The notes beneath the pieces were generated by a model. That model did no database searches. It had not been told where the DNA came from and was given only the letters and a program-made list of their open reading frames with translations. This document shows, in pieces, positions 10,621 to 44,068 of a stretch of 64,000 nt of DNA (position 1 is the stretch's first letter; each line of letters opens with the position of its first letter). This DNA is from Fomitopsis serialis (Eukaryota > Basidiomycota > Agaricomycetes > Polyporales > Fomitopsidaceae). Made by a program: the position numbers and the translations under genes. The stretch spans positions 1 through 64,000 of the forward strand of contig NW_025955050.1 in assembly GCF_022376445.1 (NCBI RefSeq), in the 5' to 3' direction.

Positions 10621-10632
10621 TTAGGGTTAGGG
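10621..10632 (+). repeat. Telomere-like word, possible element edge
   Basis: TTAGGGTTAGGG occurs once here, 10 nt after a small palindromic block (GGCGCTAAAC...TTAGCGCC, 10598-10618). The opposite-strand counterpart CCTAACCCTTAG lies at 44531. Two direct copies of TAGGGTTAAGCCGGCGC lie at 40970 and 40991. Two telomere units could occur by chance. Confidence 0.3.
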
Positions 10633-18769: not shown

Positions 18770-18991
18770 AAAACAGCCTATTTTGAGCACTTTGGGGTGC
18801 GCGCACCCATAGACATTGGCACTCGTCGACAAGAATCGGGTGACTGATCGTACGACATCACCCCCAAACGATATTGGCATGCACTGTATGTCTCTCACAT
18901 GAATGCGTCGCACGCTCACATATTTTTGCTCGACTCACAGGGGTGCGCGCACCCACAATACACGACCAAAAGTAAATGTTTGCAACAATAT

Positions 18992-21900
18992 CTATGTACG
19001 GTAAACTACGAGACGGTCACTTACGAGCCCGCTTGGGCGGAGGATGGTCGTCGTCTGCACGGAACACGTTGGAGCCCTGGTACTGGTGCCGGTTGCGCTT
19101 CCTCGTGCCCGTGACAAACTGGATGGGTGGCTGCGGAGGTGGAGGATGATCGGGCTCGTCACGGAACCTCTGCTGCCTGGGTACCTGCGAGACCGCACGG
19201 GGAGCCGATTGGCAGTGGATGACCTCGCACGGGCGCCGGTTGTCCTCGCCAACCGAGAGCTTGACGCAGTGCGCGACGACCCCGATGAACGGGCAACCCT
19301 ACTAGTAGACGACGACGAAGCACGCGGAGAGGACGTGGTGTCACTGACGGTGCGCGAGATGTCGTCGAGCGTGGTGACCTCAGGCAACGGCTCACGAGGC
19401 ACGTCAGGTGACGGCGACGCAGGGCGTGCACGGTGTCGCGAAGGCGTGGCCGTGGGGGCGCGAGAGTGCCGGGCCACGGCCGGGCGAGGTGCTACTACGA
19501 CCGACGACGACGCACGCGGAGCGACAGACAATGTACGGGGAGCCACCGACGATTCACGGGGATCTTGCGGTTGATAGAGCGTGCCCGAGCGCCGCACGAC
19601 TTGGCCGCTCGCTGCGAGCTCTTCCGCGCGTTTGACTCCGCAAAGGAGCGTGACGGCGTCGTACGCTCCGTACTGTGAGTCAAGGAAACATTTGATGAGG
19701 TACCGACAGAGTCCGCGCAGGGTGTCGCCGGTCTCAAAATCCCAGTCCTGACCCATGACACCACCCTTGCTGGCCTTGTTAGTCATTCCCCGCGCGAGGT
19801 GCATGCGTATGAGGTTGTGGATGAGGATCCCCTTTGCGCCGTGCTTGCCAAGGAACACGCGGTGGAGCGCCTTGGAGGCCGTCGTCTTGAGGTACTCATG
19901 GAGGGGACTGCGCTCGTCCCAAAGACCGATGATGTACACCGTGACCATGATGATATACGGGGCCTGCTGTTTGCAGCCAGAGCCGTTCCGGGGCATCTCG
20001 CACCAATCCGAGTTGCGGATCTCCTGTGTGATCGTTTTGACGTCGTTTGCGCGTGAGCTGAAGATGAAGTTGTTGTCGTCGTCCTTAGGGAACGACACTT
20101 TTGGTACCAGGCGGGAGAAAACCACGGCGATGATGAGCGCGAGGTGGTGCACCTCGTCCGTGAAGTCAAAGTCCCTGATGACCCATTCGTACGTCTTGCG
20201 CAGCACCTCCTTCTCCTCGGCGGCAGCGGCTGTCTTCCTCCGTTGGACAGTAGGGGCTGCACCAGGCTTCGGAACGATGAGCGGTGGTTCGACGATGCTT
20301 GCGTTCTGCAAGGTGAACTCGTCGGGCAACGTGCGACGGTTCACGAACCAGCCTATCTCGTGCAACGGTCTCCCGACGGCCTTCCACTCTGCGTCTGGAT
20401 TGGTCTCCTGCGCGCGCTCGGCCGCTTCGTTCGCGAGATCCTCCAGTTCCTCGGCGACGGTGCGGGTCATAGTCGCGGCCAGGGTGGTGATGGTTTCTCC
20501 CGCCGGCGTGATCGTGACGCCCAGCAGGTGCAGCGGCTTCTTGGGGCGCTCGACGTCGATCCACGCGTCGACGGTGGTCTTGCGAGAGGGGGGACCGCGG
20601 CGCTTGCCACCTTCCGGCGCTTTCGTCGCCTTCACCCACGGAATGAACATGACATCATTCTTTTGGAGGGCATACGCGAACACGTTCACAGCCCATGTGT
20701 GGCGGGCTGCTGCCTCTGTCAGGTACGACGGAGCCCTGTCAGTGATGCGGGCCACAACAAGCCTCAGCACGGGCAACGAAGCTCCTCCACGGACGAGCGG
20801 AGCGTGCAGCGGATGGGGATTGACTGCGCGCATGCAGTCGCAGATCTTCTGTGCCAAGTCGACGATGCCAATCCGCACGTCCTCCGCTTTGGCAGCCCTG
20901 CGCGGATGTCTGCAGGGGTCTGTGCGAGTGTGCGCACCAGGAGGCGTACGGGACAGCCGTGCTCGCCACAGCCTTGCCCTTCTGTCCGTCTTCTTCCCGG
21001 GCTCGACCTGTTTGCTGTTGTGGGAGAACGCGTTCACGCACTCCATCCACTGCTCCATGGTCTCTTCGCGGTGAGTGTGGTGGTGGAGCTCGAGCTCGGA
21101 CATCTTTTCCATATCCGCTTGGGTGACTCGCTTCGCTCGCGCACGCACTTCTCTCGCCACGAACTCCTTCAAGTCACCGATGAGCAACCTGACGCCAAGG
21201 TCCGCGACCATGACTGCGCGTGCGAACTCGGGGTCGTTGTCGCGCGCTTCCTTGTACTTGGCCGGGATGTCCTGCATCTCGATGATCTGCAGAGTGAACG
21301 TGGCCAGGTACGACTGTCGTGCAAATGGGTGTCGTCAGCATTGCCAAAATACCCCCATTTTAGGTGAACGTGCGCGATCGCGCGCGATCACCTAAAACAC
21401 ACCAATCTGCGAGTGCGCGCACCCCTACTCCAGGGTGCGCGCACACACACACAGTTGAGGTAAGACTTACCGCCAATACTGCGGGCCCCCACGTCAGCTC
21501 GATGGACCGTGCGGATGCAGTCTGAGGGGTCATGGTCGACTTTATAAGCGGCCAGCGCGTCACAGGGATGCACAGCGGGAACTCGTTCTCCAAGTCGAGC
21601 AAGATGTCGGGGTGGATGCACGGGAAGCCCAGCTCAAGCAGAGCCCGCTTGAACCACAGCAACGTCATGCACCCAGCTATCACTCGCGCATTCCCCGTGT
21701 GTGCGTACGCTAGCAGGCGCTCGAAGATCGCGAGGAATTCAACCCTCAACGGGTCCAGTTTGACGTCGGCCGTTCCGTTCTCCTGCAGGTAAGGCCGCAT
21801 CGACTTGTACATCTGCTCCGTCAGCGTGTACACAGGGAAGGTCGTCCAGTCGTATATCCGCGGGAAGATCTGCTCCCCCCCGCGAGGTGTGAGTCACGAT

Positions 21901-24900
21901 CAACAAACATCATGCCAATGACTTACACCAGGCGCAAAGACCACAATGTGTCTCTTGAGGCGAGACATGATGATGGGGTTGGTCGTGGCCTGGATGAAGT
22001 TGATTGGCACAAACCGATAGATGTCGCTGCGGGTGACGGTCAGCTCACAGGGCATCATCAAAAGAGAGGTAGTAAGTAGTACGGGCACCCACAATCCAGT
22101 GCGTTGTTTCTCAGGGATGCGGCGGACGTAGACGGTGAAGTTGCACTCGTACCGCAGGGCGACAGGTGGGTCCCTGCTGCTACCTATCATGGTGTCACGG
22201 AACCGCTCGTGCGGCAATCCAAGTTCGTTTCGATTGACAATCTTCATGCGCAGCTTGCGGCCAGCATCGCCTGTGGCCCACGAGCCAGTCGCCGCCTGGG
22301 TCAGTGAACCGTTCGACATTTCCTGCTGCCCGGCCATTGGCCGGCTGCGGTGCGACGCAGAGTTGTAGATCTGGCAGCCACCCTCCTCGATGATAGGCCC
22401 CTCGTGTCCGTGCAACCTCCGCCAGTTCTCGAGCTTCTCGAGATCAGGCACGACGTACTCGCCTCCATCTGGAATGTGCTCGTGGAAGTCGGGGCGCTCA
22501 GGAACCTCTTCCCGGATGAGCTTCTCCATGTTGACGAAGAACGGTGCATAGTGCGGGAACAGCTGGTTGGCCTGGATGTTCCCGTAATGGCCCAGGAACG
22601 CCTGCGGGTACAAGTCCAACCGCAGACGTCGCGCCCGCTCTGCCCGTTCCGAGACCATCGCCTCCACCTCTGCTGCAAACGCCTCACTGTCATTGTCATC
22701 CTCGTCGTCGTCGTAGTCGTGCGCCTGCTCGTTGTCACCATGATATTGCTCCTGCTCCTCGTCGTCATAATATTCCACCTGCTGCTGCTGATCCTGCTCC
22801 TCGTCGTAGTGCTCCTCTTCAGGCTCCTCCTCCTTGCCAGTGCCATCGTCCAAATCGCCATCATCCTGGTCTCCAAGCCCATCCCAGTCAAACGGAGCAG
22901 CAACGTCGCTGCCGTCGCCGGGGTCAGATGACTGCGGTGGCGGTGTCAAGGGATCCCAGATGCTGCCTAGGACCGGGCTCGGTGTTAGCCTGAACATCGC
23001 GGCATCCAGCTCATCCTGCTCAGCAGCAGCGGAAACGGTGTCGCCGGACGGTGAGCAGCCTCATCACCATCATCCTGCTGGACCAACTCCTGCTCCTCGT
23101 CAAAGATGGGGCCGGTGTCCTGACCGGCGAAGGCTGCGGCTGCACGACGCTCTCGGCGACGCTGTCTCTCTTCATGTTGCAGTCGTGCCGTACCCTCTCC
23201 GTCGTCGTTTGACACGCTGAACATCTCGTGGATCCGCCGGAGATCGAGGAGCAGGCCGCAGCCAGGGCCTGTGAGGTTGTACGCGTCCACACGCCTGCGC
23301 GACACCAGGGCCCCTTTCTTGTCGTAGAGCGGGATCTCCATGCCGTTCTCGTCGAAGATGGGGAACGTGTCCAGGTCGACGGGCGGGTTGTCCTTGCCGG
23401 GAATGTAGTGCTCGTACAGCGCTTCATACTTCCTGATCAACGCGTCGTTCGACACGACCTCGTACTCCTCGACCTGGTGTACTCTAAGGGTGCGCGCACC
23501 CATGTCAGCTGTGCGCAGCGGATGTAATAATAATGGTGTACTCACTGGATCTCGGAGGCGATTGCCATGCTCACGTACTTCAAGTGGGACCAGGTGCGCA
23601 TCTGGTCCCACTGACCCGCCTCGTGGTGGAGCTGGTATTGGACACCGATCGGCGTGTTCTGCCCATAGCGGCACGAGATGAGATGGGCTTGTGATGTACG
23701 AAGAACTTGTCGCCTTCCACGCGCTGGCATCTCCTCGACGAACTTCGACCACTCGTCCCGAAGATGTCGTCGATCTCCTGCACGTTCTTCAGTTCAAATC
23801 AATGCTGGCGTGCTCGCTAAGAAGATCGAGGGGGTGAGTGCACGTCGTTTGAAAAAGGGCCAATTTAGGTGATCGCGCGCGATCGCGCGCGATCACCTAT
23901 TTCGACTGTTTTCGCGACTCACAATACGTTACAAATATCTTGGATGTCCCACCCCGCGCGCAGATCCTGCGACTTGCCAAACGGATAGTTTCGGAGGATC
24001 GTCAGGCCGCTCCAGCCGATGCTCTCGAGGAGACGGCAGACAAAGAGCTGCCAGACTTTGAAGTGCTCCGGAGACAGACGAGTGTTGCCCTTTTTGATGC
24101 CATATGCGGACAGCGGAAGGGGCGCCTCGCTGTCGCTCTCGCCAACCTCGTCGTCAAAGAAGGACACGGGGACGAACACCCCCCACAGCTCCTCAATGCC
24201 GTATTTACCAAACATCACGCACCGGCCCGACGGGTCGCAACCGAGCTTGCCGTGCTTCGTCATCCGCAGTATCTTGTAACCCTGGCGCAGCTCGAGTTTG
24301 ACACTGTAGTTGTGGTGCGCAGGCACCGTCGGCAGACACACCGCCATCCCTTGCTTCCCGGGACGCAGGACAGGAAATCGAGGAAGTGATGGTCAATGTG
24401 CCAGTACAGCGACGGATCAGAGTTCGGGATGATGTACTCGTCGTCTACCTTCACGACCGTGCGCTTCTTCAGGAGGTTCGTCGCGAACTGCCTGTTCCGT
24501 GGTGTGTTGTGCTCCTGGAACTTGCGCAGCGTCGACACCTTCACCGTCTGCCGTGGGCATTCTCGCCACTTGTTCTCCTCCCAGCTCGCGGACGGAACGT
24601 GCCGTCCATCTGTTGACTCAGGGCCTCGCGCGTACGGATACCTTGCCTGACATCATCCTGACTCGCCGAGCCATCCTCCGCCGCAATGCTATCCGGAAGC
24701 GCATCCAGACTGAACGGGCCCGTGTTACCTTCCAGCGTGGACGACAGCTCTTCGCGCGCACGTCTGCCCGTGTGCAGTCATCCGTCAGCCGTACGCAACA
24801 ACTCATCAGACTGACCAGGCTGCACTTACTCATTCATGTCGTCAGTGCTCGCGAGGTGCAACAGGACCTCGTGTGGATCCATGTCTGCCGGAGGGACCGG

Positions 24901-25948: not shown

Positions 25949-28900
25949 TCACATGCGAGTTTGCGTGTTGACGTCGCTGAACACGTCCTTCGGAGCGCCA
26001 CTGTCGCGGGCACGAGTTGATGGACCAGGGCGAGCCGCACTACCGCTGGCAGCGCGGGGTGTATTCAGCCTCTGGCGCGTGCTGGCGCTGCCGGACGAGC
26101 CACTGGACGCAGCTGACGTGGATCGCAGCTTCGACTTGGGAACCGAGCCAGGCGTTGCGGCCCGACTGCTGCTCGTGCTCGAAGCACGGGAGGACGACTG
26201 CTGACGGTTCCGTAGGCTGCGCGTCGCCGGAGCTGGTGCCGGCACATTGCCAGCAGCGGGACGCTTGCCGGCCGCCTTGCTCAGGGCCGGCTGGCTCGCC
26301 TCCGGTTCACGCTCGACCTCGTCCACGGTGTCAGTCGGCTCTCCACCAGCGTTGGCCAGGGCCTCCGTGATACGCTCGGACTCCTGGAGCGCGATAGTCT
26401 TCTGGATCATCGCTAGTAAGCCGGCGCACTCGTCAGAACACCGTCCAGTACCGCAAGACACAAAAACACCTACCTGCGTACGTCTTCTCAATTTGCTTGT
26501 ACCGTTTGATGGAAAACTTGAGAGAGTCGATCGCCACTGGACTGGTATTCGGGTATTGCTTCGACAGCTGCCCGTCGCGCATGAACGACGACCGGTCGTC
26601 TACCTTCTCCAGGAGGTCCTGCAGGCGCAGACGGCGGATCTTGCTGTGCTGTAACTGTCGCGACGCCCAGTCGCCGAAGTCGTCCGTACCTGGCTGCAAC
26701 CAATGAGGCTTCTCTGGCGGTTTCGGGAACGGGAGCTTGTCCTGTCGTCCCATGTTCAACCTCCTCCGGGAATCCGTACAGTGACGCCCGCTCATCGAAC
26801 GTTACCGCGTTCTCGGATCCGATCTGTGACGGGGGTGGCGACCACACAGATGCCAGAGACGGTGGCGGTGACGACTGGGACTCTGCGTACGAGATATGAC
26901 ACAAGGTCATCAGTCTCGAGATGTCGATCACCTCCACAATAGATGCGCCAGTGTTTCCCGCAGCGTGCCGTATGCGTGCTGTGTTGCGAGAATGAGAAGA
27001 GTATAACGAGACGCCAGACTCACGCACCAAGTATGCCAACAATGACCGCATCATGGAACTCGGGCAGTTTCAGATTGAGGACGTTCTTGTCGGCCACGAA
27101 ACATGCGCGATCGCGAGCGAGGTACGCATAGCCGAGGATGGCGCGCCAGAACCCTGTCTCTGTACCCCTCCCCAAATCTTTGATCTCCTCCTCGCTCACC
27201 TCGTACGTCGCGACGTCCACAGTCAGTTGGGTATTGCTGCCCTCGCCGAAGTATCGCTGAAGATCTCGACGGGCCTGCACCGGTGTGCGCGATTTCACGT
27301 GCTTGTTTGACGGGGCTGACATAGGAGGCCACATGCCGTGGATGATGTACACGGCCGGGAAGTGGTAACTGCCCGTCACCTCTGTACAATGATGAGTATA
27401 CGTCGACTCGCCCTACAAACATACATCGCACTCACCGCCGTTCTCGTTGAGGAAGTCTGAAATGCATGTCAGCAAAGTGCTCAAATAATAGGTGATCACG
27501 CGCGATCACCCTGCGAATGGTACATGACTGGCACTCAAAACATGGGTTTTAGGTGATCGCGCGCTATAGCGCGCGATCACCAAAATCACCCTATTTACGA
27601 CCCACGGGATGTGTTGAAACATGCCATTTTAGGTGATCGTGCGCTATAGCGCGCGATCACCTAAAACCCGTGTTTTCTGACACCAGCGGGTGCGCGCACC
27701 CCGCACAAGGGTGCGCAGTGCCTAAAATAGCACGATTTAGGTGATCGCGCGCTATAGCGCGCGATCACCTATTTTGACCCTTTTGAACAGACTTACTGAT
27801 GCGTTCCGTGCCGGCGAAGTAGGCCATCCCTATACATACGCGCAGGATCTGCGAGATCACATACTGGTGGTACGGTGTGGGTTTCGCAAAGATCGGGATG
27901 GACTTGCCCGGCAGTTCCAGTATCTCCAGTTCCAGTAAGAAGGACAGGGCGATACGACGGCTTCACAGTGCAGCACGCGCAGGTTGGCATCAGCAACCTG
28001 GACAAGGAGAGGTTCGTTTTCTAACATGCCAGGCAGTGGATAGATGCCGAGAAAACGCAACAGGGCGATCTGGTAGGGCCGTGTCAGCGTATCCTCGTCC
28101 AGCTCGGCTCCCGCAAGGCAGTGATCAAGGAACCCGATGACGTCGACGGCCATGGCCTGTGCGCTCTGGTAGACGTGCGCGCGCTCGTCGACCTTTGCAC
28201 GCTTGCTCTCCCGCGCCCGTTTCGGACTCACCATCGGAGACGTCAGCCTCCGCTTGCTCCTCTGGTTCAGCGGCGGGGGTGACTGCGTCTGCCGGCCTGC
28301 CAACCCAAGATGCGAAGCCAGCATGCTGTGGGTCACCGTCGCGCCGTTGTCGACCTCTTCTTCCTCCTCTACTACCACCGGGAGCTCGTCGTCCACCTGC
28401 ATCGCATCGTCGTCGCCGCCGTCAGTCAAGGCTTGGGGCACCTCTCTTCCTCCTGCTCGTCGTCGTGGGTGCGCGCACCCTTGGTCGCCTTCTTCTCGAC
28501 ATCCTCATCGTCGTCTGTGGGCTCCCACTCGGTGTGCGTTAGATGCCCTTCGTCCACGAGCATCTGGAGCAGCGACTGCACGACATCCTTGTTACGCGTG
28601 CTAGAAGGCTGGTCACGCACATGCTTGACGAGGGCAGGCAGCAAGGCCTCGACTCTCTCGTTCATGCGCGACTGGACCTCATGGTCCATGTCTTCTATGT
28701 ACGCCAGAGGACGCTTGAGAACCTGCTTGAACAAATCTTGGCGGGTCGCATACTGTTTCGTCAGCCGCCGCGTGACCCGGTCCTTGTCAGCGTCCGGTTG
28801 GATGTCAACATCGAACCCCAGCGCCGTCATCAGCACATCCTCGACGTCTTCCATCGTCGTCGTGAGTGGCGGATCCTGATCCATCGCCGCCGAAACGTCG

Positions 28901-31900
28901 GCCCAGAACGGGTAATACGCGAGCGGGTCAACCGTGCCTGGCCGATCGCTGGTGGTAGGAAGCGGTGTCCATGCGTACATCTGATCTTTGCGGTCGTCTT
29001 CCTCGTCATCGCTTTGATCATCCCGTCGAACACGCTTGGGGTTCGCCCGCTCCGTCATACGATGCCGCAAAAACTCGCTCGTCTGGGGGTGCGCGCACAC
29101 GTCAGTGTTGCACACAACATTAATAATTATAAGCAACGTACGTTCCACAGGTGAAGCATCGTCCCCTTCGCCATCTGGTCAAGCGACTCGCCCATCTTCT
29201 TGCCCTTGACGGCACCGTCCGTGGAGTCGCTGTACTGGAACGCAGGCAGCTTGCGGAGCGACTCGAGTATCCTCGCGATCTGCGTGTTGTGATGCGAGAC
29301 CGCGGTGGCCATCGCAGAAGCCTTCCCAGCCCGTCCTGTTGCAGGTGCGGCCACCGCACCTGGTGCTGGCACCGGCGCGTTCAAGGTGAACGGCGACGAC
29401 GATGGGCCGGCGACCGCGTTTGCCTGCTGCTGCTGCTGCTGCTGTGGTTGACGACCTTGTCCAGGTGCAGGGATTTTGCCCGCGAACGCACGCTGCAATT
29501 CAGAGTTTGCAATGAGACTCGCAGCGTTCTGCTCCGTGGTCGACGGTTCGCCCTTGGTGAACCACTCCGGGTCCGCGTGCGCACCGGTCCCATCCTCTGA
29601 CGGCTTCCACGATTTGTCCGGCCTCACAATGTCCCACCACTCGTGGACCGGAATGACCTTGAAGCGGCACAGGAGGGCTGCGTACCTCGCTCGGCCCTGA
29701 GCAATTCCCAGTGTCCACCAGCTACCTCCGCGCCCGTACATCAGCAGGACTGCCGCCGTCTCCACCGTCGCTGCAGCGAGGACAGGGACGAGCGAGCGAG
29801 CACCAACCTTGACTGTGGTGTTTGCACCCTCGACGACTGGCAGCGCAGTGCGCATGAGTGCGCGCATGCCGAGCATGTCTAGCGAGAGACCGGACAGGTG
29901 CTGGAGTGCATCGCTCCGTTGATTGACAATCGCGTTCGACAGAGACTTGGTGTTCTGCGTGCACGCCTGGATGTGCTTGGCCATGTCAAAGTCCGGGAAC
30001 AACTCGTTCAGCGCAGACTCCTTCATCATGCTCACCGCCTCTGCCGTGCGCTCAGCGGGGTTGCCCTTGCTCTTCTCCGAGTACACAATGAACGCCTCTC
30101 TGATCGTCTTCTTCGAGTGTCTGCGGAAGTTGTTGACGGCCGCTACTTCCGTCGACGCTTCGTGCAGCAGTGCGACAAACGTGTGTCGATCGCGAACCAT
30201 TCTCGCGCGAGCTGCAGGCAAATAACTCAGCCTCGAGATGCACCATCCACAAGTTCAACTCACCTCCCACTGCACACTGTCCGGACGGTCCCAGTCGCCT
30301 GCGCCAGACTTGAGATCTTTGTAGTTGCCAACACTATAGAGCGCGCAGACGGTCGCATCCACGGTGATGTCGTGAGTGGTTATGCCCGTGCCGGTGCCGG
30401 CGCCGCTGGTCCCACAGAAGGACCGATGATACATGAGCGGCTCGAACATCCACGCAAGCTATAAAAGAAAAGTAAGCACACATATAGGGGTGCGCGCAGG
30501 TCACGCAGCAGTGTGCGCGCACTCACCCTCTCCCATCCCCGCTCGTACAATGAGCATTGTTCCCGGACCATCCGCATCGGCGTCGCGGTCAGCAACGGCA
30601 GAGCAGGGATAAACTCCATGTCGCCCTTGATGTACGTCCAGCCGTAGTACAAGAACGTGATGCGCCCCATGACATAGTCCAGGTGCGACAGGCGCCGCTG
30701 CTGCGTGCTGCGTGGCCCCTCGTTGTCGTTGTCGTCGTCGTCGGCACCAGGGACGGATGACCCCATCATGAGTTGGATCTGCGCCACCAGCGCGTTACCG
30801 TACTCGGCCATCGTGTCAAAAGCCTGCCTCGAGCGCACGCCCAAAACATTTGAACTGGAAAGAACATCAAGCGCCGCACGGTCGACAGTCCTGAGCATGC
30901 CATCTGTCCAAAGGCCAGGACAGGGCTTCGCACCCCCTGTGTGAAACTCGCGTTTCAACGCCGTGTACTTTCGTGAGATGATCGACGGTATGGTCCCATC
31001 GGGTTCTTCCAACAGATCCAGGTTCGTCTGCGCCTGGAGAAACTCCTGGGCCCGCTCGGTGTCGCCGTTCGTCTTCATCTCCAAGTATCTGTGACGTGCG
31101 CGCCGGGCCTCATCGTACCGCGAACATATCGACTCCACATCCTGCGTGGTGGAGAACGAAGCCTTTGAGCTGACGATGTCCATCAGCCAGCGCATGCGCC
31201 GCAGATTGAATACAATGACCTGCGCGCACCATCATGAACAACCGACAGCCGAGCGTGACAATGAATACACTCACCCCGCCGGCCGGCTTCAGGATCTTCA
31301 TCCATGTCTGGTGGCTGAAAAAGTCAGTGTCGTAATAATACTGTACCTTTCTCTCCTCTTTCATTTCGCCAATGATCGGTGTCAGCGACATGAGGAAGTC
31401 GCACACCGGCGTGACGTAGAACATGTTCGTGTGCATCGTTTTGATGTGACTGCCAGTGGCAGCAGTGCCCTTCGTTGTCGTCGTCGCCGTGCCTAAGCGT
31501 AGCTCCTTCACCACGGATCCGCGGCGGGCCAAGTAGTCGGGGAGGCGGCCATCACGCTTCAACTTGAACAGCTCACGGAAGTGCGTCCGCAAGAGATCCT
31601 CACTGGTCTCGACCTTGTGAGCCCAGCCGATGTTCTGCGCGAGCCGTTCCGCCGCCGCACCGTTACCAAGTTTTTCTGTGTGTGTGTGTGTCAAAGTGTG
31701 AGTGGGTGTGCGCAAGGGGTGCGCGCACACACTTACCCATGATGGATACTCTTGCCAGCCAGCACCCCTGCCGGCGAAGCCGATCCCCTAGTCTCTGACA
31801 CCGCGCTACCAGCCGATTGTACTGACCATTGCTGGGATCCATGTTCTCCAAACGCGCCTTCGCCGTCTCCAACTCGGTTACCTGTGGCTCGAGGAAGGCG

Positions 31901-32533
31901 ATGCTCGCAGCGATGCGATGTTGTCCGGTAATGACGTACACCGGACTGGGCGAGCCGTCAGGTCGAGGCTTCAACTTCAAGAAATCGAGGTCGAGAGGAA
32001 GCATCTGGTTGTGCTTGGTTGTGAAATCGATGTCGTCCCACCTGACCGCAACTTCGATGCAGTGCCCGCACAGGAGGCTCTGGTATCCGTCATCCACGAA
32101 CGACTTGCGGATCTTCTCGACGTGGTTGTCGTCGATCTTGCGGCTGTTGAACTGCTGCTGCACCACTTCGACATGGTCCTCTTGTTGCAGAGATGGGAGG
32201 GTTGCGAGCCGCGCGTAACCGTGGTACGCATCTGCGAGAGTCTTTTGATACTCTAGAAATAGTTCCTGCGTGATGTTCTGGTTCTGATCATGAGGATCAG
32301 CAATCGGCCGGCGCTGTGCATGCCGTCGCACTCGTTGTGGAACGCACCTTGTTCGTCTCCTCGTCTTCCGAACTCGCGTCCTCTGCTGGCTGTTTTCCAC
32401 GAGCGCGCGTCGACGTCGATACGGGCGGTTGTGCCGTCTCTTCGGGCTCCGACAAACCATCAGCCTCAGAATCCTCAGCCGGCGCAGCCTCGACGGGCTG
32501 CTTCTTGGTCGTTTTCCTCTTTCTAGGCGGCAT
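25949..32533 (-). CDS. Island gene Z: large protein with ParB-like domain
   Basis: Exon 1 (32533-32348) encodes a basic/acidic tail starting MPPRKRKTTKKQP, a likely nuclear signal. Exon 2 (32283-31737) holds a ParB/Srx-like fold: a helix with IDDNHVEKIRKSFVDDGYQ (residues about 112-130), a strand IEVAVRW, and the signature VYVITGQHRIAAS (residues 177-189), matching the G-x-x-R-x-x-A core of ParB N-terminal domains. More exons run to 25949: 31690-31280, 31245-30530, 30460-30255, 30220-29135, 29085-27800 (acidic, with a bipartite-like KRARESKRAK), 27460-26430, and a Ser/Thr/Arg tail. No C-terminal part resembles bacterial ParB. Frame seems to be lost near 30180, 27963 and 26770. Introns contain short palindromes and one cluster of long ones. 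The fold call is by motif only. Whether it binds nucleotide or DNA is unknown. Confidence 0.6.
27490..27770. repeat. Four long palindromes in one Z intron
   Basis: Copies at 27490-27510 (short form), 27551-27581, 27631-27662 and 27739-27770, the last three with centre TATA. A GGGTGCGCGCACCC site and a partial one lie between (27688-27716). The whole set sits in the intron running from about 27795 to 27461, much longer than typical introns of the gene. Confidence 0.9.
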
Positions 32534-32844
32534 GTTGATCTGAGGGTGCAGGTGAGACGGGCGCTGGACAGAGAGCGGTGAAATACGTACAGTGAGGACA
32601 GGGTGCAAGTGCAAGGGGGAGAGAGGCGTCGTGTGTGCAGAGATAGGTTGAGGATGCCTCATGTTTGCCACATGGTCGGTCTTGTCACCTGATGTGCAGC
32701 GGAATAGGTGCGTACAATGTGCGCACATAAAACATGTGTGTACACTATACATACAATGATCAGCGTAGGATAAAACATGACATACGAGCCCACCTAGGAA
32801 TACCAATGGTGGATGCCACACTGCACGCACCCCACCCCTACATT

Positions 32845-33511
32845 TAGGTGAACGTGCGCGACCGCGCGCGATCACCTGTGATAGCAGTATATGTCATCAT
32901 CGAGGACATATACAGACTGTCATAGGAGACACTCGCAGATGCGTACGTCGACTGTGACTGTAGAGGCAATTTACCCTTGATTTAGGTGATCGCGCGCGGT
33001 CGCGCGCGATCACCTTATACGCCCTTTTCGTGGTTAAAATGAGGGATATAAACACACTATTTACCTGCCAAAAAGGTGATCGCGCGCGACGCGCGCGATC
33101 ACCTAAATCAAGGGTTTTGAAGGGTGTGTGGGTGCACGTACCTTTGGTGGGTGCGTCAGAGGTGCGCGCACCCTACTATACTCTGAAAATAGGCTGTTTT
33201 AGGTGATCGCGCGTGGTAGCGCGCGATCACCTAAAACAGGGGGTTTCGTGGGTGTCAGATGCGTATTTGAGAGGTGCGCGCGCCCCATATACCTGTGCGG
33301 GAACACGTCTGGAGGGTGATCGCGCGATCACCTATTTGGCAGGTAAATGGGTAGGTTATCCCCTTGTTTAGACACCCACAAAGGAGGGTATAAGGTGATC
33401 GCGCGCGGTCGCGCGCGATCACCTAAATTGGGGGTTGGACTCACCTTTAACAGACTGTTCGTGAGAGGTACAGCTGTAGGGTGGACGCGCGCGACCACGC
33501 ACGTCCACCCT
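32845..33511. repeat. Seven long palindromes between Z and Y
   Basis: AGGTGATC-type copies at 32845-32876, 32984-33015, 33074-33104, 33201-33232, 33314-33333 (short form) and 33393-33424, and a different word AGGGTGGACGCGCGC with imperfect mirror at 33478-33511. Two short GGTGCGCGC sites lie at about 33161 and 33272. This is the spacer between the Z start (32533) and the end of Y (33592). No gene is seen in it. Confidence 0.9.
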
Positions 33512-35445: not shown

Positions 35446-36842
35446 TTACCACTGCTGGTAAAATTCGACCTGCGCATTGAACCACGCAAGGCGTCTCGTG
35501 AGAATGTCGACGCTCTTCGAGACGTCCTCGGGTGACGGCCCACCTCCCCGGTATGTGTGGTCATTGACCCCGTTCAATGTCACACGCTCCGACTGTAGAC
35601 GGAGATATACGTGCTGACAGTGAAGGGCCTGGCGCGCACGCCATACCCGTTGAGCAATGCTGTCACGGACAACACCAGGTGGCTCGGGCATCGCGACAGG
35701 CTTCTGCGACCCAGATTGCTTGTCCCAAAATTCAATCTCCTCGGGGTGCGCAAAGAGCGATGTAAGTTGCCCGATGGGGAGCGTGTATGGAGCGTCCGGA
35801 ATCGCTCTATCCCTTGGGAGATCGATTTCGAGCCAGATGGGTGGCGGGCGCTCACAGCGGATATGGAGTTTCTCTGCAACTTTTCAGATAGGTCCCATAA
35901 TACTAGATAGAGAGAGGGGTGCGCGCACCGTGGATCATGGGTAGTAGTGCGCGAAGATGACCGAGCCAGCGGTCAACCCAAACGTCAATTTCTTCATCGA
36001 ATTCGATTTCACGATCAATGCGCAATTGCCGCTCTTGGAGAAGAAGAGCAATGTGCGCGCAGATGCGCTCAAAGAACTCGTACTCGTTTGTGCAGTTGAT
36101 GTGCCCATAGGGGACAAACCACTGAGGGCATGGGTCCACAAACCGCCCGGAATAACCAACAAGTGCGTTGCGCTCTTTCGCGGCGGTATCGAGGTCAATG
36201 GCGTGTTTGGTATGATGGTCGTACAGGATCCGCTTGATCGGTGGATCCTGCCAGACTATGCCTGCATCGACTGTACCAATGTAAGGTGAGTGGCTAGTAG
36301 TACTGATGTAACAGTGGCATGGTACATGCCATAATTCTTGTCCAGGATTTCTGTGTGATGAGTCAGTATGCTGAATAGACTAATTGCGATGCAGAGAACA
36401 TACTGTGCCAGTAATCAACAGTCTCCCTCACCAAGTGCATGAGACTGATAGTGGACCGCGCGATGTGCGTCCATTCATCACGATCATGAGTGTGGATGCG
36501 CAATGATTCGGGCAATGTGCGGACGCTCCAGTTCCTGTACAAGGGGGTGATGACGTTGGCCAATGCGATCATGACCGATTCGAGTCGATCAATCTCTGAG
36601 CGGACAAAGAGCATGTTCAGGGGTTGTGGGTCGGTGATCGTGCGGACGTGTATGATACGGAGCCAGTCCTTCATGTGCTCGTGCCATCTTTGATAGGTCT
36701 CATTAATGGTGAGCGGGCCATATGCTGAACCGATGGGAGTGAGTTCCTGTAGGAACTTCTCTGTGTGTTTGGGGATCAGTCGGATGAGCGCGGCAGCCTC
36801 GAGGATCACCCGAATGCGGTCAGACCATGCTGGACGGTCCAT
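35446..36842 (-). CDS. Island gene X1, intact 402-aa protein
   Basis: Exons 36842-36404, 36270-35929 and 35873-35446 (439, 342 and 428 nt) join in phase to 402 residues without stops. The protein begins MDRPAWSDRIRVILEAA and looks mainly helical, with many Trp, His and Arg residues (DEWTHIARSTISLMHLV, NEYEFFERICAHIALLLQE, RDSIAQRVWRARQALHC). No membrane segment or catalytic motif is recognised. Exon 2 ends at CAC-G followed by GTGCGCGCACC, so the splice donor is part of a short palindrome. The last codon TGG is followed by TAA inside a strong GTAAGC donor-like word, conserved in X2, so a further 3' exon is possible. It shares the unit with Y exon 1 and has an equally intact copy X2. Function unknown. 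Confidence 0.75.
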
Positions 36843-37006
36843 GGCGACTGGTGTGCTGCGCTAGCACTGAGTGCTGCGGGCGGGGACATGGTGGGAGAGA
36901 CAACGTACCTGGCACACACTGATGGCCTGAGGATCGAAGGGAAGGGACTGGTCACGCCATCGTGCAGCCACACCAGTCACATGTGTCAAATAATATTGCA
37001 CGTGAC

Positions 37007-37535
37007 AAGGTGGACGCGCGCGGTCGTGCACGTTCACACCTTGACCATGGGTCTGGGGTGCGCGCACCATGTCATGCACGTCCAAACACCACTCACAAGG
37101 TGATCGCGCGCTATCGCGCGCGATCACCTAAATGGCATCTCTTGAGTGGACATACATGTTGCACGTCGAGAGAATAGACGCTGGCCTACATACCATTTAG
37201 GTGATCGCGCGCGATCACCTTGACCATCATTTGTGCACGCACCCCGGTCAGTCATGTCCAAACACCGATCTCAAGGTGATCGCGCGTGGTCGCGCGCGAT
37301 CACCTAAATGGCACAATTTGAACTGACATGTGCAGTACAGGTCCACTTAAACAGACGCCGATATAGGTGCGTCAAGGTGATCGCGCGCGATCACCTAAAT
37401 GGTATGTATACCGGGTACACAATAGTAGTGTTTAGGTGATCGCGCGCGGTCGCGCGCGATCACCTTGAGGGTACTTTGTCAAGACACCTCCAGCATAGGG
37501 TTTAGGTGATCGCGCGCGACCGCGCGCGATCACCT
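37007..37535. repeat. Palindrome array A (AGGTGATC identity), nine sites
   Basis: In order: variant long site 37007-37042; short GGTGCGCGCACC 37057-37068; long 37098-37129; 22-nt form 37199-37220; degenerate short GTGCACGCACC 37233-37243; long 37274-37305; 22-nt form 37375-37396; long 37434-37465; long 37504-37535. The long arms read AGGTGATCGCGCGC. The same nine positions are occupied in array B. Confidence 0.95.
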
Positions 37536-37595
37536 TGGAGGCACATTTTTGTGCACATGCACCATACACACAGGGGAGAAATGTCAACACTTTCC

Positions 37596-37625
37596 TTATA
37601 TGGTTATGCCCATATATAGTAATTA
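37596..37625. promoter_or_regulatory. Conserved AT-rich block at the right end of unit A
   Basis: A block of about 30 nt (CCTTATATGGTTATGCCC followed by ATATATAGTAATT) is identical in unit B (about 43976-44005), although the flanks and palindromes differ. It contains TATA-like words and a self-complementary CATATATAG part. It may be a promoter or an element end. Its role is unproven. Confidence 0.4.
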
Positions 37626-37689
37626 CTATATTGGGCACCATAACCCCACCCTAAGCCTGCCATGTTTATCGAAAGTCACTATAATCCAG

Positions 37690-40098
37690 CACCACCTCGG
37701 CACCGCGGGCGCCCCGCCCTTGGCCAACAAGAAGGAGTTCCGGGGCGTCCCCCTCAGGAACCTCCCCCCTTCCCCGACGCCAACGTCCTCGAGCCGGACA
37801 GCAACTACCAGGAACACCTGGAAGAGGCCGCTCCTGCGGGCGACGGGGCCGGCGGCGACGCGGACGCTGCGCGCGACGAGAACGCCGACGCTGCGAAGAC
37901 CGCCGACGACGAGAAGACTGCCGAGGTCGAGAAGACCGTCGAGGTCGAGAAGACCGTCGAGGTCGAGAAGACCGTCGAGGGCGAGAAGACCGTCGAGGGC
38001 GAGAAGACCGGCGGGGGCGAGCAAGATCCCGACGCGGAGGGCGAGCAAGATCCCGACGCGGAGGGCGCGCAAGATCCCAACGCGCAGAAGCAGGCGGGCG
38101 GCGAGAAGAACGATGGGGCCAACGCCACGGACGTTGACAAGATCATCGTCTTCTCGTACTTCCCCTCGAACAACGAGGTTCTCAAATCGTAAGTCCTCCT
38201 TCGCCTTCTCCGCAGTATTGCTCACGTTCCTCTAGTTGTTCGACGCCTACGGCATCAAGGTCCTGTTCCTCAACGGCAAGCTCTCGGCCGCCAACCGCGC
38301 GAAGGTCGTCGAAGAGTTCAGGAAGTCCGGTGTCGACGGGCCCCGCGTGCTCGTCATGTCGTAGGTCGGCGCGACTGGCCTCAACCTGACGTGGGCGAAC
38401 ATCATGATCTTCATCGTGAGTATCCCCCTTATCTCCTTGTCGTCTGCTCACACCTTCTAGGACACTACGTGGTCCGCGCAGGAGGACGAGCAGGCGAAGG
38501 GGCGCATCGTGCGCATGGGCCAGCTCAAGGCCTGCTACGTCTACTACCTGGTTCTGCTCGGGAGTACTGACGTCTTCCTGCACAACCTCGCCTACGCCAA
38601 GCTGCTCATGCACGAGGCATTCGTCGAGTCCGATTTCGCCCTGCGTAAGTCGTCCTTTTCTCATCTTGTCTTATCTGACCATGCCTCCACAGAGCGAGCG
38701 CTCTCGGGCCTCATCGGCAACGTCGTCGCGGACCTCATCGACGATGAGGCCGAGGAGGTCGACGAGGAGGACGAGGAGGAGTTCGAGGACGAGCACCCCC
38801 AGGAGGAGGAGCCCACCCCAAGGCCAGCAAGTCGAAGGGCAAGGGCAAGGCCGACAGGAAGGGCAAGGGCAAGGCCGCGCCGAAGTCTGCCGCCATCGTG
38901 GAGTCCGAGGACGACGACATCGTGGAGGTCCCGGCCCGAAGAAGTCGGGCAAGAAGACTGCCACGACGGCCGCGTCCGGGGCTGCGTCGACTTCGGCGGC
39001 CTCCACGTCCCAAGTCGCCCCGCCGAAGATGACGAAGAAGGCGCAGAAAGCCGCCGCCGCCGCCGCGAAGAAGGCCGAGAAGGAGAAGGAGAAGGCCGAC
39101 AAGGCGGCCGAGAAGGAGAAGGAGGCGGCGAGGAAGGCTAACCTCAACAGCTGCGCCGCCGGCAGCGCGAGGGCTATCAAGGCCGCCGAGGTGAAGGCGA
39201 AGAACGCTGCCAAGGCTTCCGCGCAGGCTGCCGCAGAGGCTCTCGAGGACGAGGTCGAGAAGATGGCCGCGATGGCCGCAACGCCGACGCCACCGTCGTC
39301 CCGCTCGCCGTCTCCGTCGACTGGCTCCGCTGCCGGCCCCGCCCCCGCCCCCCTCACACTCCCACTCCGCCGCCGCCATCGTCCTCCCGGTTTGTGTTCC
39401 CGCCCCTCCCGTCCCCTGCTCGCGTCGTCCCCCGCCCTCGCCGTTCTCGTTCCTCCCGCCGTCCTCGCCGCAGCACCACCACCCGCACTCTCCCGCCGGC
39501 CCATCGTCTCCATGGCGCCAAACCTCTACCGTCCCCCTCGCTCGGCTGCAAACCCGCCCTCCCTCGACGCTGTTGCTCAGCAGTTGCGTGAGGCGTCCCT
39601 CCACCCCGCCCCGCAGCAGGCCGCCGCCCCCGTCGTCGACAACGAGGACGCCATGGACGTGGACAACGCGCCCCTCCCGGGTGCTGGCTTCACGCAATCC
39701 AGCCCTCTCAGTAAGTCCTTACCCGTCTTCAAAACACCTTGTGCTGACTTCCTTCTAGGCACCCCCGCCGCCAGCCCCTCTGCAGGCTTCATGCAGTTCG
39801 ACCAGGACGAGCAGGACGAGCACGACCAGGACGAGCACGACCAGGACGAGCACGACCTGGACGAGGCGAGGGCGCGTCTGCCGCTGGATCGTCGTCTGCT
39901 GCTGGACCGTCGAACCCGCGCAAGCGCAAGAACTCGTCCGCGCTGGATGAGCCCCCTCGTCGGACGATGCGCAAGGCCCCGATGGTCGAGCGCTTCACTT
40001 TCGCCAAGGTCAGCGGCGGAAAGGCAACCGGCAAGCCGACGACTTCTGCGCGCAACGCGAAGAGCGGCTCGAAGGGCAAGAAGGGTGGCAAAAAGTGA
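37690..40098 (+). pseudogene. Truncated second SNF2-like copy
   Basis: Only the second helicase lobe and tail are present. The sequence corresponding to RGVPLRNLP and FPDANVLEPDSNYQ aligns with GVPLSQLPEFPDSNRLVPDKDY of copy 1. A Glu/Lys/Val-rich insertion made of near-identical EVEKTV units (37910-38020) interrupts it. It continues as DKIIVFSYFPSNNEVL, LFDAYGIKVLFLNGKLSA, VGATGLNLTWAN and DEQAKGRIVRMGQ. An in-frame TAG (38362-38364) replaces the Gly before VGATGLN, and the motif VI His/Arg region is altered. The Lys/Ala-rich tail needs several frame changes. The ATPase lobe with motifs I-III is missing, so it cannot encode a working translocase. Its left end abuts unit A directly. Confidence 0.8.
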
Positions 40099-40253
40099 GG
40101 CCTTCGTCGTGTCGCGGACTCGTATATACTGTATCATCTCTCGCATCCTCATCTGTACACGTCGGACTTTGTTTTCTTTTGTTCTTGTACTACTCGTTAC
40201 GCGGAATGCAATGCTTATCGTACATCAGTGTGACTTTGAATGGGTACATTGGA

Positions 40254-40330
40254 AAGATAAGCAGTTGTAAGTAACGACGGAGAGATAAGCAATTATAAGT
40301 AACTACGGAAAGATAAGCAATTGTAAGTAG
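40254..40330. repeat. Three 29-nt tandem repeats after SNF2 copy 2
   Basis: Three copies of GATAAGCAATTATAAGTAAC-type units followed by TACGGA. Copy 1 of the gene is followed by a similar run of GAATAAGA/GACTAC units (about 9997-10045) at the equivalent place. Confidence 0.7.
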
Positions 40331-40386
40331 CCACTGTTACAACGGGCAGAATCGCAGCTCTAAGCAACCAGTCACTACCCCAGCTC

Positions 40387-40903
40387 GGGTGAACCGGCCA
40401 GGCTGGACGGTGAATGGGTACGGTTCGTCGAATGAAAGGCCGGGCGTGCGATGTGTGCGTCCTCGACGCACAGCGCGCACGGGCAGCAACGGGCGCGCGG
40501 CACGGTGTTGTGCGTCCGCGACGCACAGCGGGCACACGCCGGACGAGGCACGTGAGGCGCGCGCATGGCCTGCGGTCCGGCGGTGCACGTGCACGGGTGC
40601 AGCTCCGCTCGCGCCGGCCGTCGCGCGGGCGTTGTGCGTCCGCGACGCACACCTGCCCGCGCGACGCCCAAGGCTCTCGGCTCCGCAGCAACCCGCGCAC
40701 TTGCACCGCCGGACCGCAGGCCATGCACGGACCTCACGTGCCTCGCCCGTCGTGCGCCTGCTGTGCGTCGCGGACGCACAACGCCGCGCCGCACGCCCGT
40801 TGCTGCTCGTGCGTGCTGTGCGTCGCGGACGCACACATCGCATGCCCGGCCTTTCATTCGACGAACCGTACCCATTCACCGTCCAGCCTGGCCGGTTCAC
40901 CCC
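40387..40903. repeat. Large inverted repeat with five embedded palindromes, 3' of SNF2 copy 2
   Basis: Arms of about 215 nt (40387-40602 and about 40690-40903) are reverse complements with roughly 90 percent identity; the outer 60 nt are nearly perfect. Palindromes TGTGCGTC-NNN-GACGCACA sit at 40454-40472 and 40509-40527 (left arm), 40633-40651 (loop), and 40762-40780 and 40818-40836 (right arm). The layout of two, one and two sites equals the inverted repeat after copy 1, but the arm word is GTGCGTC instead of GTGCGCC. Confidence 0.95.
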
Positions 40904-40969
40904 ACTCTCCAATCCACCCACACCAGTCCATCGCCCTGCCCGCCCGCTCTGGGAAATCTTGGGCGTCTA

Positions 40970-41047
40970 TAGGGTTAAGCCGGCGCTTACTAGGGTTAAG
41001 CCGGCGCCAAGGCACCCTGGGTCGTCTCAATTGTCCCCATAACCCTA
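40970..41047. other. Junction with TAGGGTTA direct repeats and a possible element end
   Basis: Two direct copies of TAGGGTTAAGCCGGCGC (40970 and 40991) are followed by CAATTGTCCCCATAACC (41028-41044), then by the truncated Y copy. A near-identical word CAATTTCCCCATAACC lies at 44517-44532 at the other side of unit B. The pair may mark ends or insertion scars. Confidence 0.35.
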
Positions 41048-41097
41048 GGACCGCACGTCAATCCCCCAGCTCGCATCCCACAGAACAGGGTACTCAC

Positions 41098-41328
41098 CAG
41101 CAGGTATGTCGCGACGATCATTTCAAAAACCTTGAAGGACGCCGGGCTGTTGTACAGCGCCCGGAGCATCCTGTTGAGGAGCATGAGGTCCTCCTCCGTC
41201 CAGTCGTCCCATCGCGGCGGGTGGTCCGTGAAGACAAAGACGTCGCGCTCGCTGAGACGGTGTCCGGCCTCGAGGGCGACCTTGCGCAGGTAGTTGCACA
41301 CCTTTTCGATGCCCCAGGTGCCGACCAT
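41098..41328 (-). pseudogene. Isolated exon 1 of a second Y gene
   Basis: This is a 231-nt open exon starting MVGTWGIEKVCNYLRK, the same length as exon 1 of Y and also carrying DHPPRWDDWTEEDL. It keeps the GTGAGT donor after CTGCTG. Homology to unit A continues through the intron and stops at about 41047, just before where exon 2 would begin. The remaining exons are absent, so only a truncated product is possible. Confidence 0.85.
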
Positions 41329-41824
41329 TGTTGCAGGGTGTCGAGGAAGAGCGGGGTGAGTGGTAGAAGCAGGGGGGAGAGGGAGTGCGAGTGGGAGAGG
41401 GAGATGCGCGCGAGCAAGACCGAGCAGCCACAACGGCGTCCAAGTCTCAGCCACAAGCCACGGCGCTAAGTCGACCGACGCGACGCGCCGGCCACCGGTC
41501 ATCTGACCGTATGTGCCGTTAACGCTCAAGTGTTCGGCCTGCACTGTAGGTAAGGGGTGATTAAGTGTGCGCAGTGTTTATTACCGTGCGCACGGTGATT
41601 CTTACCGTGCGCGCGGCGATTCTTACCGTGCGCATAGCATGCGGTACTCACCGTGTTTGGTGCGCGCACCTTTGTGACTTACCTCTGGCTGAATGAATAT
41701 GTGTCCGACCGTGAGTAGCATTGTTCCGCGCGTGTTGTAAGAGACCATACAAACATGACTACACAACTGAGATCTGGTAGGTAGAACATGTCACTGAGTG
41801 TTCAACGTTCAGAGTGCGGGATGC

Positions 41825-43213
41825 TTACCACTGCTGATAGAATTCGACCTGCGCATTGAACCACGCGAGGCGTCTCGAGATAATGTCGACGCTTTTCGAG
41901 ACGTCCTCAGGTGACGGCCCACCTCCGCGGTATGTACGGTCATTGACCCCGTGCAATGTGGCACGCTCCGACTGTAGACGGAGATATACGTGCTGGCAGT
42001 GAAGGGCCTGGCGCGCACGCCATACCCGTTGAGCAATGTTGTCGCGCACAAGCTCAGGTGGTTCGGGCATTGCGACGGGCTTCTGCGATCCGGACTGCTT
42101 GTCCCAAAAATCAATCTCCTCGGGGTGCGCAAACAGCGATGTGAGTTGCCCGATGGGGAGCGTGTATGGTGCGTCCGGAATCGCTCTATCCCTTGGGAGA
42201 TCGATTTCGAGCCAGATGGGTGGTCGGCGCTCACAGCGGATATCGAGTTTCTCTGCAACCTTTCAGACAAGTGCCACAATACTAGAGAGAGAGGGGTGCG
42301 CGCACCGTGAATCATGAGTAGTAGTGCGCGAAGATGACCGAGCCAGCGGTCGACCCAAACATGGATTTCTTCATCGAATTCAATCTCACGATCTATGCGC
42401 AATTGCCGCTCTTGGAGAAGAAGGGCAATGTGCGCACAGATGCGCTCAAAGAATTCGTACTCGTTCGTGTAATTGATGTGGCCATAGGGCACAAACCACT
42501 GAGGGCTCGGATTCACAAACCGTCCGGAATAGCCAACAAGTGTGTTGCGCTCTTGCGCGGCGGTATCGAGGTCAATGGCGTGTTTGGCGTGATGGTTGTA
42601 CAGGATCCGCTTGATGGGTGGATCCTGCCAGAGTATGCCTGCATTGACTGTAGCAATGGAGGGTGAGTAGCTACTGATGTAACAATGGTGTGGTACATGC
42701 CATAATTCTTGTCCAGTATTTCTGTGTGATGAGTCAGTATGCTGAATAGACTAATTGTCATGCAGAGAACATACTGTGCCAGTAATCAACAGTCTCCCTC
42801 ACCAAGCACATGAGACTGATAGTGGACCGCGCGATGTGCGTCCATTCATCACGATCATGAGTGTGGATGCGCAATGATTCGGGCAATCTGGGGGTGCTCC
42901 AGTGCCTGTACAAGGGGGTGATGAAGTTGGCCAATGCGATCATGACCGCTTCGAGTCGATCGATCTCTGAGCGTACATAGAGCATGTTGAGGGGTTGCGG
43001 GTCGGTGATTGTACGGACGCGTATGATGCGGAGCCACTCCTTCATGTGCTCGTGCCATTTTTGGTAGATCTCGTAGATGGTGAGCGGGACGTATGCGGGA
43101 CCGACGGGAACGTGCGATTGCACGAATTGCTCCGTGTGTTTGTGGATCAGCCGGACGAGCACAGCAGCTTCGAGGACGACACGAATCCGGTCAGACCATG
43201 CTGGACGGTCCAT
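41825..43213 (-). CDS. Island gene X2, intact paralogue of X1
   Basis: Exons 43213-42775, 42647-42306 and 42252-41825 have exactly the lengths of the X1 exons (439, 342, 428 nt) and encode 402 residues. Differences from X1 are mostly substitutions, for example LVRLIHKHTEQFVQ for LIRLIPKHTEKFLQ near residue 20, and many fall at third codon positions. The donor of intron 2 again lies within a GGTGCGCGCACC palindrome (42294-42306). Preservation of both frames after clear divergence suggests that both copies are or were under selection. No function can be assigned. Confidence 0.75.
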
Positions 43214-43369
43214 GGTGACTGGCCAGCGCTGAGTGCTGTGGTAGGGGACATGGTGAGAGCAAGAACGTACCTGGCGCACACAGATGGTCTGTGGATCAAA
43301 GGGAAGGGACTGATCACGCCATCATGCAAACAGATGAGTCACATGTGTGGAATATTATGGCACGTGACA

Positions 43370-43917
43370 AGGAGGGCGCGCGCGGTCGCGCACGTCCTCC
43401 TTTGACATGCATCAGGGGTGCGCGCACCATGATATGCATGCCCAAATACACCTCGGTAGGAGGGCGCGCGCGATCGCGCGCGCCCTCCTATTTAGCAGAT
43501 ATATGTACACACACACCGTATACGTTGGCAGAATAGACGCCGGTACACATGCCATGTAGGAGGGCGCGCGCGATCGCGCGCGCCCTCCTATACCATGGAT
43601 CATGGGTGCACGCACCATCCCATACATGTCCAGATATCTGTGTTTAGGAGGACGCGCGCGGTCGCGCGCGCCCTCCTATAAGACACATTTTGATTGGACA
43701 TGTGCTGTGTATGCACACTGAAATAGACGCTGATATAGGTACGATTAGGAGGGCGCGCGCGATCGCGCGCGCCCTCCTAATTGGTATGTATGCCATCTCC
43801 ATAATATCCGTGTTTAGGAGGTCGCGCATGGTCGCGTGCGTCCTCCTTAATGTACCTTGTCATGACCCATCCAGCATACATTTTAGGAGGGCGCGCGCGA
43901 TCGCGCGCGCCCTCCTA
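43370..43917. repeat. Palindrome array B (AGGAGGGC identity), nine sites
   Basis: In order: long 43370-43401; short GGTGCGCGCACC 43417-43428; long 43457-43490; long 43557-43590; degenerate short GGTGCACGCACC 43605-43616; long 43645-43678; long 43746-43779; long variant 43816-43847; long 43884-43917. The long arms read TAGGAGGGCGCGCGC. Order and types match array A one to one, including the same degenerate fifth site. Confidence 0.95.
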
Positions 43918-44068
43918 TGAGGCATCTTTTGGTGCATATGTACTACTCACACAGTGGAGAAATGTCACCACTTGCCTTATATGGTTATGCCCATATATAG
44001 TAATTCGTATATCGGGCAACACAACCCCACCACAACCCCCCCATGTTTACTGTAGGTCACTATAATGC

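Follow-up and report, generated by a model that had tools for sequence, protein, structure and literature searches.

In the brown-rot wood decayer Fomitopsis serialis, the first 64,000 nucleotides of contig NW_025955050.1 (NCBI RefSeq assembly GCF_022376445.1; hereafter the window) carry two related elements, assigned below to families T and G, in which arrays of palindromic sites (dyads) lie next to predicted genes. A so-called gamma array, array A in the T element and array B in the G element, is situated upstream of a predicted gene X; a second gene, Z, lies directly downstream of X and is fused to it in the NCBI model P0004, and a beta array is situated upstream of a further gene, Y (Table 1). 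Array A starts 166 bp upstream of the predicted ATG of X and the beta array about 300 bp upstream of the likely ATG of Y, all placements upstream of genes or in introns being taken from hand-made gene models. A preliminary description had regarded A and B as copies of one locally duplicated module, in which every long palindrome had been switched in concert to give a locus-specific address code.

When aligned base by base and then site by site, the two arrays prove to be collinear with homologous flanks, including both flank pairs that had been quoted. Six long sites out of nine positions (s3, s4, s6, s7, s8 and s9, that is, 12 arms) entered the arm comparison, s8 being partly decayed in B; outside the count were position 1, where B has a long site and A a degenerate one, position 2, where the short GGTGCGCGCACC site has kept its word in both arrays as first described, and the decayed short site at position 5. 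At arm positions 4, 6 and 7, 35 of the 36 cells differ between A and B in the mirrored form originally reported, with T4A in 12/12 arms, A6G in 12/12 and T7G in 9/12, the three arms without T7G comprising two that read A and one that is unchanged. Among the other 132 arm cells, 4 differ, and the sequence that flanks and separates the sites has 393 identical bases out of 529 aligned. Measured against this flank divergence rate (P = 6e-20 for the switch cells and P = 2e-12 for the conserved cells), the change of the former and the constancy of the latter are both far beyond chance. The supposed one-to-one match of site types holds in its order, with the exceptions that position 1 is degenerate in A and that two of A's six compared sites are 22 bp, not 32 bp, long; similarly, the switch of every long palindrome stands for the six compared sites and fails at a few edge sites, which remain unswitched. 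In total, the window holds 24 T dyads and 6 G dyads, compared with 0 in each of 20 first-order Markov windows, together with 11 perfect palindromes with arms of at least 11, compared with 0 in each of 30 control windows, and 14 exact copies of the short word GGTGCGCGCACC.

The search for further copies covered one genome of 66 Mb on 806 contigs (denoted C with a number), with three alignable families. Module A shares 99.3% identity with its counterpart on C14 and 96% with that on C186, and module B is 98–99% identical to C17 and C590 and 96% to C46, compared with about 83% between A and B; judged by these identities, A and B are members of two sister element families, and the local duplication had to be given up, since the closest relatives lie on other contigs. 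Exact T arms (61+61) occur on C14, C94, C95, C186, C656 and C797, with single arms on C556 and C692, and exact G arms (37+35) on C17, C46, C186, C590, C797 and C805, compared with 0 for T and 3+4 for G in a reversed-pattern control. As 120 of the 122 T arms and all 72 G arms fall inside these elements, an interpretation of the arrays as generic repeats was rejected.

Each family possesses its own palindromic word. A genome-wide search for 32-bp dyads in which positions 4, 6 and 7 were left open returned 66 dyads, compared with 0 in the reversed control, of which 32 are T-type, 34 G-type and 0 mixed (among the 66, the 14 on C797 and 2 on C805 were read from sequence); the coordinated, symmetric change is restricted to one site family as proposed, with no mixed dyad in the set. 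Counted by hand, the T arms read TAT 63 times and TAA once (n = 64), and the G arms read AGG 62 times, AGA five times and AGT once (n = 68). C186 and C797 harbour one element of each family apiece, each keeping its own word; the word follows the element family with copies on several contigs, and the code is not locus-specific. In a looser scan, T-element stretches contained 3 to 24 T dyads and G-element stretches 3 to 12 G dyads, both types occurring together only in the window, which has both elements, while one D-like dyad (of a third family, D, described below) was found in each of four T stretches, consistent with an unswitched site. Allowing mismatches in the open-position scan, 8 of 56 arms in the window's T stretch carried other letters, although most such arms look like chance short palindromes. 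On viral contigs, the T arm occurs in at least 120 stretches, with one arm each among the matches listed and no dyad.

The elements are likely mobile, because their copies are dispersed and their common end is sharp. All 12 copies in which the array-side end is present break off at one shared position, which reads ...CACTATAAT for families T and G and ...CCCTATAAT for family D and beyond which the sequences differ between copies, except in the pair C17 and C46, which have about 20 kb in common at 99.1% and hence represent one insertion instead of two. A second occurrence of CACTATAAT lies within the G beta array; therefore, the string alone does not define the end. In both insertions with an unfilled counterpart (2/2), the element ends between an A and a T of the target site, and insertion A sits in an apparent helicase-type reading frame (judged by eye) that is continuous across the site on C17 and C46. 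No left end of the element was located: the sequence that should flank insertion A on its left matched C17 and C46 only.

T dyads occur at seven places in total and extend left to 14477. Those from 21362 rightward lie within stretches common to C186, C94 or C14, and the two leftmost places were assigned by their word because they have no shared copy. The beta array has orthologues in the G copies on C17, C46 and C590, which are switched too and have alignable flanks, and the likely ancestral arm listed in Table 1 is retained also in the aligned G site at the outermost beta position.

Table 1. Positions of the arrays, dyads, predicted genes and termini in the window.
Feature	Position	Strand	Remarks
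Array A (gamma array), T-family element	37008..37535	.	
Array A, degenerate site	37008-37041		
Array A, short site	37057-37068		
Array A, T dyads	37098-37129, 37199-37220, 37274-37305, 37375-37396, 37434-37465, 37504-37535		37199-37220 and 37375-37396 are 22 bp
Array B (gamma array), G-family element	43370..43916	.	
Array B, sites	43370-43401, 43458-43489, 43558-43589, 43646-43677, 43747-43778, 43816-43847, 43885-43916		
Array B, short site	43417-43428		
Beta array, T element	32846..33510	.	last site 33479-33510 retains likely ancestral arm GGGTGGACG
Four T dyads	27490..27770		likely intronic (by eye); stretch common to C14, C94, C186
Single T dyad	23867..23898		likely intronic; stretch common to C94 and C186
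Single T dyad	21362..21393		one arm with intermediate TAA; stretch common to C186
Three T dyads	18519..18770		stretch without second copy; element membership inferred from word
Three T dyads	14477..14752		leftmost in window; element membership inferred from word
Gene X, T element	35446..36842	-	predicted 410 aa, four coding blocks joined by hand
Gene X, G element	41825..43213	-	predicted 410 aa, left limit approximate
Gene Y	28426..32545	-	fragmentary model, limits approximate; GQHR-containing exon 31747-32274
Right terminus, T element	37677..37684	+	CACTATAA, then target T
Right terminus, G element	44058..44065	+	CACTATAA, then T

The third family, D, found on C448, C394 and C431, is 71–73% identical in the X coding stretch and serves as an outgroup; a further D-like cluster possibly lies at the start of C133. 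Its dyads of about 30 bp read TGTGRANRYGCGCR, and T or G dyads were not seen in it. Because single D arms are frequent in the control as well (71+78 exact matches vs 15+23), the dyads, and not the single arms, were taken as informative. Aligned by their centres, the D arms carry TGA or TAA at the switch positions in 26/32, 26/32 and 29/40 cases, and in T the first, degenerate site of the gamma array reads AGGTGGACG. From these data, with one outgroup whose arms are offset by one base from those of T and G, we infer an ancestral arm GGTGGACG with the letters TGA, and the simplest history would lead from TGA via TAA to TAT in T and via AGA to AGG in G. The intermediates are still present, TAA in 3 of the 56 T arms of the window and AGA in 1 to 8 arms per G copy; stepwise substitution is favoured because they survive in both families. 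Lengths of 32 and of 22 bp both occur among the T sites, through a 10-bp change at a GATCGCGCGC repeat unit; for example, site 8 (s8) has the longer form in A (32 bp) and the shorter one (22 bp) in C14 (C14:125805-125826), C186, C656 and C95, a variation that was not seen in the G gamma sites, while one 22-bp site occurs in the G beta array. Between T and G, CpG decay is slower in dyads (7/52) than outside them (13/29, p = 0.003), a difference that is non-significant in five within-family comparisons; it was discarded as a sign of unmethylated sites, since selection on the word alone would give the same pattern.

A candidate reader of these words is encoded by gene Z. Five aligned Z types share six invariant cysteines in the arrangement C-x2-C-x7-C-x8-10-C-x2-C-x6-C, and a motif scan of the sequences covered located this cluster in T (C14, C94 and C186, identical), in G (C17, C46 and C590, identical) and in D (three, identical). 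Three more clusters lie close to a fourth word, F4 (ACCCGCNNTCGCGCC), on contigs C448 and C186, and the scan otherwise picked up just a low-complexity run of cysteines, present on C17 and C46. For single F4 arms the counts were 85+78, compared with 4+4 in the control. Z matches of shorter length, about 47 residues with E near 1e-6, lie 264 bp from an F4 site on each of C279, C474, C369 and C100, and further short ones were found on C733 and at C590:9781, beyond the F4 matches listed, and on C196, the latter with F4 sites; for the short match on C79, no F4 site lies near it among the matches listed. As X was found with T, G and D only and the Y exon with T and D only, Z is, at the sensitivity of these searches, the one gene of the three that accompanies all four words. 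When T (C94) is compared with G (C46), nonsynonymous divergence (dN) is highest in the cluster exon, at 0.178, among the four Z exons compared (others 0.062–0.100), with a ratio to synonymous divergence (dN/dS) of 0.32; no Pfam match to Z was obtained, the zinc-cluster profile included. In the F4 word itself, the two middle bases are commonly AC, GT or AA, and the order AC, GT, GT, GT, AC recurs on three contigs (C100, C186 and C369), as a mixed but ordered code.

Genes X and Y were likewise considered as readers and are disfavoured. Gene X was not found in the F4 elements by sequence search; its 410 residues are identical at 363 positions between A and B (dN/dS 0.19), and X, like Z, looks to be under purifying selection. 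In hand-made gene models, interrupted reading frames of X were seen on C17, C46, C186 and C431. Across the interval 36301-36600, which comprises part of X with its first intron, A and B share 95% identity, compared with about 83% overall, and codons 101-150 show almost no synonymous change, which may reflect a conversion tract or a conserved element. GGTGCGCGCACC also coincides exactly with a predicted 5' splice site in X, that of one and the same intron in A and B (35918-35929 and 42295-42306), with the exon ending ...CACG and the intron beginning GTGCGCGCACC, while the D-family X intron begins GTGCGCGCATC. An exact-word search for relatives in other species, with hand-made gene models, returned five proteins for X, all from F. 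serialis, and none for Y or for the open reading frame (ORF) at 18992-21334, with about 8000 candidates scored for each of the latter two. In the NCBI model P0001 of copy B, some of the palindrome array is read as coding sequence and yields GARDRARPP repeats, a likely misannotation. The Y exon at 31747-32274, with PVYVITGQHRIAASIAF, resembles ParB or DGQHR-type domains by eye, yet in a profile search DndB remained below the cut-off (E = 0.085) and no NCBIfam match was obtained; the exon was found in T and D only and not in the G or F4 elements, which have arrays.

Other repeats adjoin these elements. In the G-family neighbourhood, a long minisatellite with a unit of about 317 bp occupies C17:124141-125820 and C590:22547-26714. 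A second element type, helicase-like by eye and with a recurring end ...CATAACC, covers 37685-41044 and 2573-10684 of the window, possesses inverted repeats of its own (e.g., TGTGCGTCGCGGACGCACA) and, on C805, C186 and C797, directly borders X or Z elements that are broken; its ORFs at 5423-7278 show Pfam SNF2/DEAD similarity below the cut-off only.

Several known systems invite comparison. Gal4-type Zn2Cys6 regulators of fungi (C-x2-C-x6-C-x5-12-C-x2-C-x6-8-C) typically bind inverted repeats as dimers. Z resembles them in its six cysteines, arranged as two C-x2-C pairs and two single residues; however, its first loop is x7 instead of x6 and so falls outside the motif, its cluster lies towards the C-terminus without a Pfam match, and it is encoded inside a likely mobile element. 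Helitrons insert between A and T, as the present termini do in both informative cases, and are characterized by a CTRR 3' end and a Rep/helicase protein; in contrast, the 12 T, G and D copies with the end present terminate in CTATAA. A Pfam scan that covered 20 ORFs or exons of the window gave no Rep/helicase match above the cut-off. The same scan yielded no match to DUF3435, the tyrosine-recombinase captain of the giant Starship elements, in an element whose left part is not delimited, and no Mutator-like (VANDAL/MULE) transposase or VANC domain. In ParB-parS partition, palindromic sites are clustered as they are here, and gene Y carries, by eye, a GQHR motif as in ParB or DGQHR-like domains, but Y has no Pfam or NCBIfam support above the cut-off and was not found in the array-bearing G and F4 elements. 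The closest parallel is offered by the VANC anti-silencing proteins of Arabidopsis VANDAL elements, which, according to PMC5735166 and PMC10398659, are element-encoded and read short motifs that are dense in the non-coding parts of their own family, namely in upstream regions and introns; related families (e.g., that of VANC6) have different motifs, which diverge together within an element, and the motifs are short same-orientation units in tandem repeats. The likeness, a close one, lies in family-private motif arrays in non-coding parts (a placement taken here from predicted gene models) and in a family-encoded candidate binder, and the difference in that the sites described here are dyads of 22–32 bp at conserved unique positions, not tandem repeats, and that Z resembles a zinc cluster by eye and not VANC. 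In the VANC system, bound copies lose DNA methylation. No report of arrays of this type in basidiomycete elements was found in open papers under the terms used, passages of PMC12730594 among them.

Taking together what is directly seen (copies scattered over the genome that end sharply at a shared terminus and are flanked by unrelated sequence, a single word in each family without mixed dyads, arms that are constant except at three positions, intermediate letters in both families, and Z, alone among the three genes searched, with all four words examined), we give an even chance, or marginally better, to the explanation that sister mobile-element families keep private words, that the predicted reader Z shifted its preference and that selection rewrote the sites singly. 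In such a mechanism, a family-encoded DNA-binding protein, predicted to be the cysteine-cluster protein Z, would bind the dyads and change its site preference, after which selection would rewrite the sites, one substitution each time. Binding may activate or un-silence the element's own genes, as suggested by the arrays upstream of the predicted genes X and Y and in likely introns, as with VANC; own-gene activation and relief from silencing are both possible. Between the two mechanisms put forward in the preliminary description, selection through a changed site-reading factor fits somewhat better and wholesale rewriting less well, because intermediate letters survive in a minority of arms in both families.

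Alternatively, gene conversion may have spread the letters of one mutated site through the element without a reader change as the driver, which we consider rather unlikely. Whole-site copying should erase the agreement between the centres of orthologous sites, and the four-base centres of T and G match at 5 of 7 gamma sites (P = 0.029, using the 32-bp allele where T copies vary); moreover, intermediates persist in both families, T sites lie as much as 23 kb apart, and the constancy of the other arm letters would still require a function. Several observations nevertheless weigh on the side of conversion: the centres match at 0 of 5 beta sites, the arms are nearly uniform within each family, and the near absence of synonymous change in X codons 101-150 may mark a conversion tract. 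Over both arrays, the centres agree at 5/12 sites (P = 0.097), which favours neither reading. Also on the side of conversion, the centre of site 9 (s9) reads GACC in A, C14 and C186 and the reverse complement GGTC in C656 and C95, as if it had been flipped, which suggests recombination or inversion at palindromes.

The dyads may also be sites of the transposition machinery, comparable to the subterminal repeats of other DNA transposons, in which case the changed reader would be a transposase. In A, B, C14, C17 and C590, the five copies for which the distance was determined, the last gamma dyad ends 149–150 bp before the sharp terminus, as this proposal would lead one to expect, but T dyads occupy six further places leftward, four of them in stretches common to copies, while X, which adjoins the terminus, was not found in the F4 family and no transposase domain was detected in the 20 ORFs or exons scanned; we hold it to be improbable. 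That the palindromes act as DNA structures (cruciforms, hairpins, or replication or breakage sites), their letters being incidental, is very doubtful: near-perfect dyad symmetry and the 10-bp length changes at repeated GATCGCGCGC units would suit such a role, yet any paired letters would do in a hairpin, whereas 128 of the 132 non-switch arm cells are unchanged and each family has one word at positions 4, 6 and 7.

When a regulator changes its specificity, dozens of sites have to change with it, which makes such events difficult to investigate, and a single genome here appears to preserve two parallel switches from one likely ancestral word, alongside an outgroup, intermediates, unswitched sites and a candidate reader; a change of a protein-DNA code without loss of function therefore becomes testable by a few binding assays. 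The notion of element-private anti-silencing or activation codes would, moreover, be carried over from plants to fungi. A wider proposal, offered tentatively and at somewhat less than even chance, is that of a superfamily of giant fungal mobile elements whose lineages each place a palindromic address of their own in their non-coding DNA, to be read by a cysteine-cluster protein that is likewise their own, two sisters having rewritten the whole address in parallel. If true, the paths from TGA to TAA to TAT and from TGA to AGA to AGG would be readable site by site through their intermediates, and private addresses would make elements in one nucleus mutually invisible.
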